DNA of 33,555 nucleotides from positions 1 to 33,555 of the forward strand of contig CAMVLL010000016.1 of the NCBI GenBank assembly GCA_947168315.1, read 5' to 3'. The notes under the pieces are model-generated. The model worked only from the letters and a program-made list of their open reading frames with translations, had not been told where the DNA came from and did no database searches. The stretch is from an uncultured Bacteroidota bacterium (GTDB taxonomy: Bacteria > Bacteroidota > Bacteroidia > Bacteroidales > Bacteroidaceae). Positions 19,484 through 27,941 of the stretch are shown piece by piece. Each line of letters opens with the position of its first letter. Positions within the stretch are counted from its first letter, which is position 1. The position numbers and the translations under genes are program-made.

Positions 19484-19556
19484 GGTTGGACTACCGAGAC
19501 TCGAACTCAGTCAAACAGAACCAAAACCTGTTGTGCTACCATTACACCATAGTCCA
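19483..19556 (-). tRNA. tRNA-Gln (anticodon TTG), CCA encoded
   Basis: RC folds as TGGACTA/TAGTCCA acceptor, GTGT/GCAC D-stem, ACAGG-ttTTGgt-TCTGT anticodon arm, CTGAG-TTCGAGT-CTCGG T-arm, A discriminator, CCA. Confidence 0.95.
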
Positions 19557-19584
19557 ATCAGTGCTTTCATTCTGAAAAGCGCTG

Positions 19585-22933: not shown

Positions 22934-24196
22934 ATGAGAGTCCTGATTGTTAACACCTCGGAGCGGATAGGTGGTGCGGCTATTGCAGCCAACCGACTGA
23001 TGAATGCCTTGAAAAAAAACAATGTCAAGGCAAAGATGCTCGTGAGGGATAAGCAAACGGATGAGGTAAGTGTCATTGCTTTGAGAAAGTCTTGGCGGAA
23101 AATATGGAATTTCCTTTGGGAAAGACAGGTTATCTGGATAAACAATGCTTTTTCAAAGCAAAACTTGTTTGCGGTGGATATCGCAAATACAGGCACCGAC
23201 ATCACTTTGCTTCATGAATTTGAAAAAGCCGACGTCATCCATCTTCATTGGATCAATCAGGGCATGCTCTCTCTGCAAACTATTCGCAAGATACTTCATT
23301 CTGGAAAGCCTGTGGTGTGGACAATGCATGATATGTGGCCGGTAACAGGCATCTGCCATCATGCAAATACCTGCGAAAAATACAAAACGAAGTGTCATCA
23401 CTGCCCTTTACTCCAACTTGGTGGGAAAAAAGATCTGTCGCAACATGTCTTTCAAGAGAAAGCAAAATGTTATACGGGCGCCAATCTTACCCTTGTTGGG
23501 TGCAGCCGTTGGATTGCTCATCGGGCAGAACAGAGTGCTTTGACAAAGGGATTGAAGATAATGAGCATACCGAACCCTATCAATACGGATCTGTTCCAAC
23601 CTCTCGATAAAAAAGAGGCTCGCAAACGTTGCCATCTTCCTGAAGATAAGAAATTGCTGTTGTTCGGATCGGTGAAGATCAGTAATAAGCAAAAAGGAAT
23701 CGACTATCTGATAGAGGCTTGCAAACTTCTGAAAGAAAATCATCCGGATTGGAGCAAGGACTTGGGCGTTGTCGTTTTTGGACAGGAGGCCGATCGCTAT
23801 GCTTCCCTCTTTCCTTTTCCTTGCTACGCAATGAACTATGTGAGCAGTGAGCAGGAGCTGGTGCAAATCTACAATTCTGTTGATTTGTATGTCACTTCTT
23901 CTTTAATGGAGAACCTTCCGAACACGATTATGGAGGCAATGGCCTGTGGAATACCATGTGTGGGTTTCAATATTGGAGGAATTCCGGAGATGATCGATCA
24001 TCAGCAGAACGGATATGTGGCAGAATACTGCTCTTCCGAGGATTTGGCTCGTGGTATCCAATGGACATTGCAAGAAGAGGAATATCCTAAACTCAGTGAA
24101 TCATCCCGAGAAAAAGTAATGAATAGTTATTCCGAGGAAATCGTAGCCAAGCAATATACTCAACTTTATCGTAATCTGTTGAAACAAAATGCATAA
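22934..24196 (+). CDS. Glycosyltransferase family 4
   Basis: SERIGGAAIAANRLMNAL N-terminus; TMHDMWPVTGICHH; EX7E-like region SLMENLPNTIMEAMACGIPCVGFNIGGIPEMI. Confidence 0.92.
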   Translation: MRVLIVNTSERIGGAAIAANRLMNALKKNNVKAKMLVRDKQTDEVSVIALRKSWRKIWNFLWERQVIWINNAFSKQNLFAVDIANTGTDITLLHEFEKADVIHLHWINQGMLSLQTIRKILHSGKPVVWTMHDMWPVTGICHHANTCEKYKTKCHHCPLLQLGGKKDLSQHVFQEKAKCYTGANLTLVGCSRWIAHRAEQSALTKGLKIMSIPNPINTDLFQPLDKKEARKRCHLPEDKKLLLFGSVKISNKQKGIDYLIEACKLLKENHPDWSKDLGVVVFGQEADRYASLFPFPCYAMNYVSSEQELVQIYNSVDLYVTSSLMENLPNTIMEAMACGIPCVGFNIGGIPEMIDHQQNGYVAEYCSSEDLARGIQWTLQEEEYPKLSESSREKVMNSYSEEIVAKQYTQLYRNLLKQNA

Positions 24197-24941
24197 CACT
24201 CATCTACATCCGAAGTTCTCCATTATCACGGTGACCTATAATGCTGAGGCCGTGCTTGATGATACCATTCAAAGCGTGGTCAGTCAGACATACAAGGAGA
24301 TAGAATATATCATCGTGGATGGTGGGTCGAAAGACAGAACAATGCAGATAGCCCGACGTTATCAGGATAAGATATCTGTTCTTATCAGTGAACCCGACAA
24401 AGGATTGTATGATGCGATGAACAAGGGAATCCGACAATCGACAGGTGATTATGTTTGTTTTCTGAACGCGGGTGACCAACTACACGAGGACGATACCTTA
24501 TTCCACATTGTGCAGACGTTGCATGGAAAAGAATTGCCGGATGTAATTTATGGAGATACCGATATCGTGGATGGTGAAGGACATTTCCTTCACAAACGGA
24601 GACTCTCTCCTCCCGAACAACTGACGTGGAAGAGTTTTAAGCAGGGGATGTTGGTTTGTCATCAGGCTTTTTTTGCCCGAACAACCTTGGCGAAGAACAC
24701 ACCATATAATCTGAAATATCGGTTCTCAGCCGACTTTGACTGGTGTGTGCGAATCATGAAACAGTCGAACGTGTTGCATAATACACATCTAACCATCATT
24801 GACTATTTGAACGAGGGCATGACTACACAAAACCACAAGGCGTCCTTGAAGGAACGTTTCTGGATCATGTCCCGGCATTATGGTTTCTTCAACACGGTCT
24901 TCCATCATCTTTGGTTTGTTATCCGACTGTTCGTTAAGTGA
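24189..24941 (+). CDS. Glycosyltransferase family 2
   Basis: FSIITVTYNAEAVLDDTIQSVVSQTYKEIEYIIVDGGSKDRT, ISEPDKGLYDAMNKGI: GT-A fold motifs; 8-nt overlap with upstream GT4. Confidence 0.93.
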   Translation: MHNTHLHPKFSIITVTYNAEAVLDDTIQSVVSQTYKEIEYIIVDGGSKDRTMQIARRYQDKISVLISEPDKGLYDAMNKGIRQSTGDYVCFLNAGDQLHEDDTLFHIVQTLHGKELPDVIYGDTDIVDGEGHFLHKRRLSPPEQLTWKSFKQGMLVCHQAFFARTTLAKNTPYNLKYRFSADFDWCVRIMKQSNVLHNTHLTIIDYLNEGMTTQNHKASLKERFWIMSRHYGFFNTVFHHLWFVIRLFVK

Positions 24942-24956
24942 TACCCCTTTCAAAAA

Positions 24957-25019
24957 CTCGACTTTTGGGCTCCAAAGCTCGATTTTCAACTGAAAAAACT
25001 CGATATTTCGCCGAAAAAC
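24957..25019. repeat. Three tandem 21-nt degenerate repeats, each with a small palindrome
   Basis: ctcgacttttgggctccaaag / ctcgattttcaactgaaaaaa / ctcgatatttcgccgaaaaac; degenerate partial copies flank both sides (24947-24956, 25020-25034). Confidence 0.75.
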
Positions 25020-25379
25020 AACGGATTTTGAAAAGAATAACACGACAATCGTATAGCAAAAACACTAAAACAAGGATTCTTTGTTGTTAAAGAGATTTTT
25101 TCTGTAAGAAACGACCTTGTGTCGTCTCGCAAACAATCATTGTTGTTACCATTAATTGTTCTTTTGATTCTGTAATTTGTTGTGAGAAGAAAAACTTCCA
25201 TCAACCATTCATGGAATCTTTAGGTTACAAGGACTGAGTGAATGGGAATAAATATTCATTCCGTGAAATATTCATGCAAAAACACCCTCCCCATGCACTC
25301 AAATTAAAAAACATCCTTCACCTTCACCTTTTTGCTATTCCTTTTATTATCAATCATTTAAAATGTCAAGAAAAACGAA

Positions 25380-25404
25380 ATGGTGAACCTTAATGGTTCA
25401 CCAT
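25380..25404 (-). terminator. Intrinsic terminator hairpin downstream of GH2 gene
   Basis: ATGGTGAACC ttaat GGTTCACCAT perfect 10-bp stem, followed on the minus strand by TTCGTTTTTCTTG. Confidence 0.65.
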
Positions 25405-25463
25405 GCCGAAAATCCCCATTTTACCCTACTCGGGTTTTCTACATATTCATTACTTTCTGATTG

Positions 25464-27941
25464 TTATCTGACCAATACCTCTACCTTTTCCGTCGGGAAT
25501 TCTTCCGACGAAACAGAAAGTGTTATAATTCCTTTGGACGATGCTTGCAGGATCGCCAAACAACTGCCATGCCAGGTCTTACAATCAGCATGACGGAAAC
25601 TCTCCATGTCATCGGGTGCTCCATTGCCACAGGCCAAAAGTTTACCCGCTCCACTTACCGATAAATGAAGTTTCACAGCTGCTTCAGGAATGATATTTCC
25701 CTCATTGTCTACTATATGTATACGTACGTAAGCCAGGTCGTTGACATCATTCGCAATCGACTTGCTTTCAGCCACCAATTGGATGCGGGCCGCCTTTTGT
25801 GTCTTCAGCGTCTTTGAAGCCATCTCCTTGCCCTCTTGATCATATCCTTTCGCTACTAAGATTCCCGATTCGTATGGTACTTGGAACTCTGCAATCAGAT
25901 TATTTTTCAATACAGGTTTTTTAGTTATCATTCGACCATTCAGGAATAATGCCACTTGGTCGGCATACGAATATACGCGGACAGTCATCAGTTTGTTCTC
26001 GTATCCCTTCCAGTTCCAGCTGGGTAACTCATCATACCATCCCCACTTGCTCACCAGTTCGAACTTTCCATCGACTACCGGTGCCACCGCCACTTCCATC
26101 TGACTTCGTTTCCACACTACGTCACGGTAATAAGACTGTGCTTTCTTGTTGCCGATCAAATCGATGTCACCGCAGAACGATACGTACCATGGCCACAAGC
26201 GCGTTGGGCGAGCATAGTTCAAAGTGGTGTTATCTGTATAGACCGCATTGCCGATGCCAACCTCACCGATATAATCCATGCCTGTCCATACGAATGAACC
26301 TAAGTAGCAGTTGAGGTTTTGCTCCATCTGGTAGTTCAGATATACTTCCCTCGGAAAACTTTCGGTGCTGACCATGATGCGGTTTGGGAACTGCAGATGA
26401 TCAGCGAATATCTCACGCAATCGGTAGTTATATCCCCACACATCCAAGGCTGCATAGACCTCATCCAACTGGTCTTTTACCAATCCTTCCCGTTGGGCAA
26501 AGGCACAAACGCCATCGGTGACAGGACGGGTGGTATCATTTGCCTTCACGACATCGGCCAGTCTGCGGGAGATGGCTGCACCTTCCGGCGTCTGGTCGCC
26601 AGGGATTTCATTGCCAATGCTCCACATCAAAACGGATGGGTGGTTGCGGTCACATTGTACGAGGGCTGCTTGGTCGCGGTAGGCCCACTCATTAAAGTAA
26701 AGATGGTAGTCATAATCCCGTTTCCCAATCAGCCAAGAATCGAAAGATTCATCGATAACGAATACTCCCAGGCTGTCACAAGCATGGAGAAAGGCTGCCG
26801 ACGGACGGTTATGGGAGGTGCGGATGGCGTTGAACCCGTTCTGCTTCATCACGCTGACACGGCGAGCCTCCGCCTTATCGTAGGCAGCAACACCCAAAAT
26901 ACCATTGTCGTGGTGCATACAAGCACCATGCAGCTTGGTTGGCTTGCCATTCAACAAAAAACCTTCCTCTGCAGAGAACGAGATGGTACGGATACCAATC
27001 GGTGTCGTATATTGATCCATCAGTTTTTTGCCATCGAAGACTTGCACTTCTGCTTTGTATAAATAAGGATTTTCGGGTGACCAAAGTTGAGGATTGCTCA
27101 CTTTGCAAGAAGTGTGGAGCGTATCGCCTTTAGCAGATAATTTTGTTGATAGTTTCGTCCCAACTATTTCTTTACCGGATGCATCCAGCACCTTGGCAAC
27201 GAGTTGGACATTCCGTGTTCCATGGGCTTCATTCATCAGCGGGATGTCGAAATGGACAGTAGCTGTATTGTCGGCAACATCGGTTTTTATCTGAACACCC
27301 CATACTGGGAAGTGGATGGCACCAGTTTGTATTAAATACACATGGCGATAAATGCCACCACCACAATACCAGCGGCTGTTATCAGCCGTGTTATGAGCAC
27401 GCACCGCAAGGACATTCTCCTGATTTCCGCCTTTCAGATAAGGAGTCAGGTCATAGAAGAAAGGCGTATAACCATTGGGATGGAAGCCAAGATGATGATC
27501 GTTCAACCAAACATCAGAAAGAACGGAAATACCGTCGAAAACCAGATATACCTTTCCCCCCTGCTGACGGTTAGGTAATCTGAAATGCTTACGATACCAG
27601 CCAGTACCACCCGGCGTATTTCCTGTTGAAATGGAATCTTTGATATCTTTTAGGAATGGTCCAATACCGTTTTTGCCGGTGAAATCGCGTTCAATGATAA
27701 AATCGTGAGGCAAGGTGACGGTCTTCCATTGGGTATCGTTGAAAGAGACACGAGCAGCTTCCTCCGAAGCATCCTCCATAAATCTCCAGTCCGCATCAAA
27801 CAACGAGGTCTGTCCGAAACAAGTGAAAGCAATCAGCAATAAGAAGGCTATAAGACAATGTCTTTTGATAAAAAAAGCATCGGCGGACAATGTTTGCGAC
27901 AATATCCGCTTGATGCCAGTACCTTTTTTGAACGTTTTCAT
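25464..27941 (-). CDS. Glycoside hydrolase family 2 (beta-galactosidase-like)
   Basis: FDADWRFMEDA...WKTVTLPHDF; GTGWYRKHF; FDGISVLSDVWLNDHHLGFHPNGYTPF; SIGNEIPGDQTPEG acid/base region; STESFPRE nucleophile region. Confidence 0.92.
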   Translation of the reverse strand: MKTFKKGTGIKRILSQTLSADAFFIKRHCLIAFLLLIAFTCFGQTSLFDADWRFMEDASEEAARVSFNDTQWKTVTLPHDFIIERDFTGKNGIGPFLKDIKDSISTGNTPGGTGWYRKHFRLPNRQQGGKVYLVFDGISVLSDVWLNDHHLGFHPNGYTPFFYDLTPYLKGGNQENVLAVRAHNTADNSRWYCGGGIYRHVYLIQTGAIHFPVWGVQIKTDVADNTATVHFDIPLMNEAHGTRNVQLVAKVLDASGKEIVGTKLSTKLSAKGDTLHTSCKVSNPQLWSPENPYLYKAEVQVFDGKKLMDQYTTPIGIRTISFSAEEGFLLNGKPTKLHGACMHHDNGILGVAAYDKAEARRVSVMKQNGFNAIRTSHNRPSAAFLHACDSLGVFVIDESFDSWLIGKRDYDYHLYFNEWAYRDQAALVQCDRNHPSVLMWSIGNEIPGDQTPEGAAISRRLADVVKANDTTRPVTDGVCAFAQREGLVKDQLDEVYAALDVWGYNYRLREIFADHLQFPNRIMVSTESFPREVYLNYQMEQNLNCYLGSFVWTGMDYIGEVGIGNAVYTDNTTLNYARPTRLWPWYVSFCGDIDLIGNKKAQSYYRDVVWKRSQMEVAVAPVVDGKFELVSKWGWYDELPSWNWKGYENKLMTVRVYSYADQVALFLNGRMITKKPVLKNNLIAEFQVPYESGILVAKGYDQEGKEMASKTLKTQKAARIQLVAESKSIANDVNDLAYVRIHIVDNEGNIIPEAAVKLHLSVSGAGKLLACGNGAPDDMESFRHADCKTWHGSCLAILQASSKGIITLSVSSEEFPTEKVEVLVR

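Follow-up and report, generated by a model that had tools for sequence, protein, structure and literature searches.

What is the short tandem array that follows the GT2 gene in the window, the whole stretch of 33,555 nucleotides analysed here, and does it act as RNA or as DNA? The first-pass annotation, made from the letters of this stretch, had noted three consecutive units of 21 nt starting with CTCGA, each carrying a small palindrome, and had suggested that the palindromes change in sequence and stay complementary. We followed the array through the window's genome, a draft of 2.57 Mb (89% complete) from a Phocaeicola species, and through its relatives. The genus follows from G017, a genome of the same genus with a contig that matches plasmid NC_015165.1 of Phocaeicola salanitronis DSM 18170 at 100% identity over the 4,000 bases compared.

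Results

The three CTCGA units lie right after the GT2 stop at 24957–25019 with an exact 21-nt spacing, and the sequences quoted for them before are correct (Table 1). The extent given earlier, 24947–25034, contains these units, but the true feature is longer (24945–25058) and also includes the lead CCCTTTCAAAAA and two degenerate units at the 3' side. The window copy begins 3 bases beyond the GT2 stop at 24941, inside a 522-bp gap between convergent genes, and reads in the order CCCTTTCAAAAA, CTCGACTTTTGGGCTCCAAAG, CTCGATTTTCAACTGAAAAAA, CTCGATATTTCGCCGAAAAAC, AACGGATTTTGAAAAGAATAACACGACAATCG. Two CTCGA pairs at 21-nt spacing were seen in the window versus 0.30 expected, a number reached by 3 of 100 shuffles. 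Tandem Repeats Finder did not report the array because its units are too diverged. A profile made from nine further copies recovered the window copy in full length (24945–25058, profile positions 1–114, E = 9e-18, nhmmer), and our sequence model R1 matches it at 24946–25060 with E = 1.7e-22.

Table 1: Features of the array and its neighbourhood, in window coordinates.
Feature	Position	Strand	Basis
Whole dispersed element (~115 bp), CCC-lead plus five ordered 21–22-nt units	24945..25058	+	nhmmer, edge similarity among copies
Sharp 5' boundary, CCCTTTCAAAAA	24945..24956	+	column information of 20 copies
Unit 1 CTCGACTTTTGGGCTCCAAAG	24957..24977	+	
Unit 2 CTCGATTTTCAACTGAAAAAA; most other copies have CTTGA here	24978..24998	+	
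Unit 3 CTCGATATTTCGCCGAAAAAC	24999..25019	+	
Degenerate units 4–5 AACGGATTTTGAAAAGAATAACACGACAATCG...; consensus CTCGAATTCTGAAAAGAAAAACTCGATAATAGAAA	25020..25058	+	alignment of copies
GT2 gene, 5' flank, directed at the element	24189..24941	+	ORF list; GT2 name from the first-pass annotation, by sequence reading
3' flanking gene, facing the GT2 gene; looks beta-galactosidase-like by eye	25464..27941	-	ORF list, coordinates
Second dispersed element E2, CCTTCACCTTCACC ... GGTGAACC-TTAAT-GGTTCACC hairpin	25285..25440	+	separate family, same intergenic gap

With the sequence-only model about 44 confident copies (E < 1e-11) were found in the window's genome, which bears out the idea of a dispersed intergenic element, one of the roles proposed initially. 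The triple-core CTCGA pattern gives 15 matches in this genome and none for a reversed-pattern control. The closest genome with further copies is the MAG RUG12482 of a sister species, where about 30 were scored and the total is at least 30; this MAG is G060 and, judged by matching coordinates, apparently also G073 of our list of relatives. A copy is built from four to five ordered, non-identical units of 21–22 bp with a AAAAACTCGA core, which is nearly invariant at a spacing of 21–22 nt in both species, and units of 22 nt make up 6 of 61 in the window's genome and 16 of 35 in the sister. Instead of an open-ended tandem series, the copies share one order of units, namely the CCC-lead followed by U1 CTCGAYRTTTGGYTTCAAAAA, U2 (usually CTTGATTTTCNGCTTCAAAAA), U3 CTCGATNTTT....AAAAA, U4 CTCGAATTCTGAAAAGAAAAA and U5 CTCGATAATAGAAA. 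The sister shows the same five-unit layout with different interiors (CTGAGTTTTT...AAAAAA CTGAGTTTTTNAACGAAAAAA CTCGATAAATGAGGGTGAAAAA CTCGATAAATGAAAAAATTTATA CGATGAATGAAA).

In a comparison of 20 copies the similarity starts sharply at the 5' side, 12 bp ahead of U1, with column information at background level upstream of position -12, and fades at the 3' side about 40 bp into U4–U5. The ends of these 20 copies, CCCTTTCAAAAA (5') and ...TAGAAAGTTATTATT (3'), carry no terminal inverted repeats when compared by eye. As a short, AT-rich, dispersed and non-coding repeat with many copies per genome, the element nevertheless fits this part of the description of MITEs. An Rfam search returned only a tRNA and no match to the element, the plasmid collection contains no copy, and nothing in the viral contigs matches the core pattern.

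The palindromes had been taken as the maintained property, each unit being a small stem-loop of RNA or a DNA hairpin that is kept by compensatory change at the 3' end of the mRNA. Three palindromes of 5–6 bp are visible in the window copy, and the 54 units of 21 nt from the window's genome show a weak, non-significant stem excess (mean best stem 3.28 bp versus 3.04 bp after column shuffling, p = 0.08; 12 versus 8.5 stems of at least 5 bp, p = 0.10), with columns shuffled independently and with unit 1 of the window left out by the unit filter, its AT content being just under the threshold. However, the palindromes are centred differently, at positions 9, 7.5 and 8 after CTCGA as read off the sequence, and the supposedly compensatory pairs thus sit at non-homologous positions. 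The best stem of many units does not exceed 2 bp, and substitutions freely break the pairing. Stems in the sister do not exceed the shuffled level (p = 0.56 for 21-nt and p = 0.99 for 22-nt units), its units CTCGATAAATGAGGGTGAAAAA being almost stemless. It has AAA where the window's species has TTT at the same phased position, an exchange that destroys the palindrome and keeps an A/T tract about 10–11 bp from the A5 tracts. The RNAalifold consensus of -1.47 kcal/mol with one double-sided change is essentially unfolded, which together with the missing Rfam match also speaks against a stepwise structure at the 3' end of the mRNA, and at several loci separate, classical terminator-like hairpins are located between the gene and the array. 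RNA hairpins and dyads at a variable centre are unsupported, and we consider the hairpin array very improbable. When a periodic, AT-rich repeat shows palindromes in a single copy, this is no evidence of RNA structure.

It is established that DNA bends where A/T tracts recur in helical phase. The curvature of the copies was predicted using the wedge parameters of Bolshoy 1991, and all figures given here are predictions of such wedge models. For the window copy a turn of about 119 degrees over 114 bp is predicted. The end-to-end ratio has a mean of 0.70 for the window's species (all 15 copies) versus 0.93 for dinucleotide shuffles, and of 0.74 versus 0.93 for the sister copies. As a tendency to bend comes with any 21-bp period, a further control held the period and permuted the unit's columns, and the real base order proved more bent than nearly all column permutations in most of nine copies; the curvature optimum was at 21 bp spacing in eight of the nine. 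No other 115 bp of the locus is as bent as the element at 15 of 19 loci of the window's genome and at 12 of 18 sister loci. Ranked among 215,653 other 115-bp segments of this genome, 19 of 20 elements belong to the most bent 0.5%; ranked among AT-matched segments, each of the 19 own copies tested reaches the top 1%. With AA/TT wedges only, the effect has the same direction and is weaker, 14 of 19 copies reaching the top 1%. L072 is the one own copy without a predicted bend. The many low p-values are not independent, as the copies are paralogues.

By its predicted curvature and phasing the family would count among curved-DNA elements with phased A tracts, and under the wedge model the thing maintained is the helical phasing of the A/T tracts. 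Selection on structure rather than on primary sequence, as suggested in the first-pass annotation, therefore holds in spirit if structure means predicted curvature, and fails for the palindromes. A protein-binding array, also suggested there, is possible and fits the spacing of two turns. The same curvature model places the most bent 115-bp stretch of the window at 19561, beside a tRNA gene (19486–19556, minus strand).

Gaps with an element are preferentially convergent, both in the window's genome (11 of 18 versus 10 of 80 other gaps, p = 4.5e-5) and in the sister (12 of 25 versus 11 of 76, p = 1.6e-3), and divergent gaps are avoided (2 of 18 and 1 of 25 of the gaps with an element, respectively). 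These counts refer to gaps of at least 20 bp between crude, simple ORF-based gene calls, and the bias holds at other minimum sizes. A link to glycan genes, a check proposed in the first-pass annotation, was not seen among 20 flanking proteins: their functions are varied and of a housekeeping kind, including ClpB, a PEP synthase/PPDK-like protein, PntB, glutathione peroxidase, glycerate kinase, mannose-6-phosphate isomerase and others, with one GH35.

The window gap also holds the second dispersed element E2, of which about 28 copies exist in the window's genome, about 20 of them within roughly 400 nt of an array in several arrangements; E2 has many copies in the sister species, too. Runs of short perfect hairpins, differing in their arms and alike in style, are found around arrays in both species (GGGGATTTGTAATCCCC, GCGGGTCACAGACCCGC, GTGGATCTCCAGATCCAC, GGCCTAGCTTGTCTAGGCC and GACGACACAAGGTCGTC at L076, L077, L122, L127, L141 and L145), and these runs, unlike the arrays, look like elements that change their arms while the pairing stays.

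At the window locus the sister has a gap of only about 70 bp with a hairpin and with neither array nor E2, and the flanks of this gap are too diverged to read a target-site duplication, the window gap holding E2 as well. Several other gaps are occupied in both species. Eight such same-gap pairs were compared, and in six of them the identity across species is 0.47–0.53, no higher than that of random cross-species pairs and below the mean of 0.64 among copies within the window's species. This points to turnover, replacement or concerted change. The pair L161/L124 looks truly orthologous; at L158/L144 both species have an array in the same convergent gap, but the two face opposite ways with respect to the genes. 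Two further pairs suggested by synteny, L169/L123 and L173/L143, proved to be different gaps.

Beyond these two species the family was searched in three ways. The three-core CTCGA pattern gave, outside the window's own genome, only chance matches in coding sequence among 60 relatives; in the scan of genome contigs the sister MAG RUG12482 was the sole match, and the sequence model applied to 119 relatives found strong copies in the own and the sister genome only. Of the weak matches of the model, many were AT-rich coding DNA, and some pointed to arrays that keep the period but have another core. Such arrays are formed by AAAAAGCTCGGYATSTTTTT in G016 and G002, by AAAAGAACTTGATNTTT in G078 and by seven units of CCTAGGACTTTGATTTAAAAA in G111, which belongs to another family; G111 has this array and one further weak place, and its array is not a large family. 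The core is thus characteristic of the genome, with CTCGA in the window's species, CTCGA together with CTGAG in the sister, GCTCGG in G016 and G002 and CTTGA in G078. Predicted curvature is strong for the G111 array and weak in G016, G002 and most of G078, so that spacing and not curvature is the wider common denominator. The arrays with other cores share the period, and their common ancestry is possible. In G016, another Phocaeicola, GCTCGGYATSTTTTT arrays adjoin a GTAGGGGC...GCCCCTAC hairpin repeat family (L182, L204 and L205).

Discussion

We propose, with a probability of about one half, that the array belongs to a dispersed non-coding repeat family, MITE- or REP-like, whose copies form a bent, phased DNA platform at the 3' ends of genes and at convergent junctions. 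The computation gave dispersal, ordered units, phasing, a strong predicted curvature and a bias to convergent genes, and it gave neither conserved stems nor a shared reading frame. In the proposed model each unit would combine a CTCGA-type core with two A/T tracts, an A5 tract and another one about half a unit from it. With 21–22 bp corresponding to two helical turns all A/T tracts would come to lie on one face of the helix, resulting in an intrinsic bend, and the element would act as DNA and not as RNA. A nucleoid-associated or other DNA-binding protein might recognise the bent platform, which may pin the tips of plectonemes or buffer supercoils between converging transcripts. Protein binding, any effect on supercoiling or transcription and the mode by which copies spread are inferences. 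Curvature may also be secondary to a protein-binding register of 21–22 bp, given the weakly curved arrays in other Phocaeicola.

The main rival is a purely selfish, MITE-like repeat without host function, whose units are sites for its own mobilising enzyme or an inheritance from the founder, and which survives where it does the least harm, between convergent genes. We regard it as a possible explanation that is less probable than even. It would account for the presence or absence of copies between species, as at the window locus with 522 bp versus about 70 bp without array or E2, for shared-gap copies that are about 0.5 identical across species and 0.64 within the window's species and so suggest turnover, for the avoidance of divergent gaps and hence of promoters, and for copies that adjoin other dispersed repeats. 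The convergent placement is equally expected of a selfish insertion tolerated away from promoters. Yet neither the sharp 5' nor the softer 3' edge has terminal inverted repeats, no transposase-bearing copy was seen, none of the 20 scanned flanking proteins is a transposase, and the genome has no Y1/RAYT transposase; the searches of the plasmid collection (copies) and of the viral contigs (core pattern) were negative as well. Selfishness alone also leaves the in-phase exchange of AAA for TTT unexplained. The bent-platform and the selfish-repeat readings are compatible with each other.

The units might instead be an operator-like array of sites, in which a sequence-specific protein would contact AAAAACTCGA once per two turns from one side of the helix, the A tracts causing the curvature only incidentally. 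The near-invariant core at 21–22 bp in two species agrees with this, as do the genome-characteristic core variants, which are expected of sites that follow a changing protein; but the copies lie between convergent genes and not at promoters, the cores drift widely and no candidate protein was identified, and we consider such an array rather unlikely. A degenerate coding sequence was considered because 21 nt equal seven codons and the window copy contains an antisense ORF of 84 aa with a heptad-like pattern (25043–24789). This reading has a negligible probability: units of 22 nt (6 of 61 own, 16 of 35 sister) break the frame, the open frame varies by copy, and an ATG ORF runs across the element on either strand in only five of the tested copies. 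A coding repeat was consequently rejected on its mixed 21/22-nt period and on the absence of a frame common to the copies.

Coming back to the bent platform, a bolder version can be formulated, which we offer as a speculation with the odds clearly against it. Phocaeicola and perhaps other Bacteroidales would possess chromosome-organising arrays of 21–22 bp in which the two-turn register is kept and the core is swapped per species in all copies at once, tracking a DNA-binding partner and marking convergent junctions. If the platform is real, the most strongly bent DNA of these gut and rumen bacteria would be a dispersed repeat at the ends of converging genes, and the family would offer a direct handle on chromosome folding in Bacteroidota and on the handling of supercoils between converging transcripts. 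The constant spacing with a core sequence that varies between species would then represent a natural experiment.

In the literature searched the element is not described, and two known systems were rejected as its identity. A CRISPR array requires identical repeats with unique spacers, and the units here are diverged and contiguous without spacers, as the first-pass annotation had rightly stated. A REP/RAYT system does not fit either, as the consensus has no conserved stem and no GTAG or CGTC tag and there is no RAYT transposase; PF01797, the Y1 REP-associated tyrosine transposase, gave no match in the window's genome (89% complete) and was positive in five control genomes.

The nearest named relative, set beside the element by its description, is BrickBuilt, a MITE with a 23-nt minisatellite that is present in 19 copies per genome in Porphyromonas gingivalis and is reported to have no BLASTn match outside this species (PMC4596501). 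Both occur in Bacteroidales, consist of spacerless direct tandem units in strictly intergenic, dispersed copies, combine conserved and variable positions within the unit, and have neither an ORF nor an Rfam match. They differ in that BrickBuilt has 1–23 near-identical repeats, whereas a copy here has 4–6 ordered units of 21–22 nt, and in that BrickBuilt has a leader and tail bearing TIRs and a long stem-loop, neither of which is found here; the present element, on the other hand, is strongly bent by prediction and has a convergent bias. REP, BIME and other GTAG- and CGTC-tagged repeats are located mostly between convergent or unidirectional genes (PMC3733652). They resemble the element in being short, dispersed, intergenic and clustered with other repeats in mosaics, but a REP is one stem-loop, tagged GTAG or CGTC and tied to RAYT transposases, in contrast to an element with no conserved stem in a genome with no PF01797 protein. 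In E. coli, helically periodic A/T tracts and curvature peaks downstream of coding sequences have been described (PMC516772). Intergenic A/T tracts with helical periodicity are common to both cases, and what is a diffuse statistical property of unrelated sequences in E. coli belongs here to a discrete family of about 44 copies that is constant in its layout.
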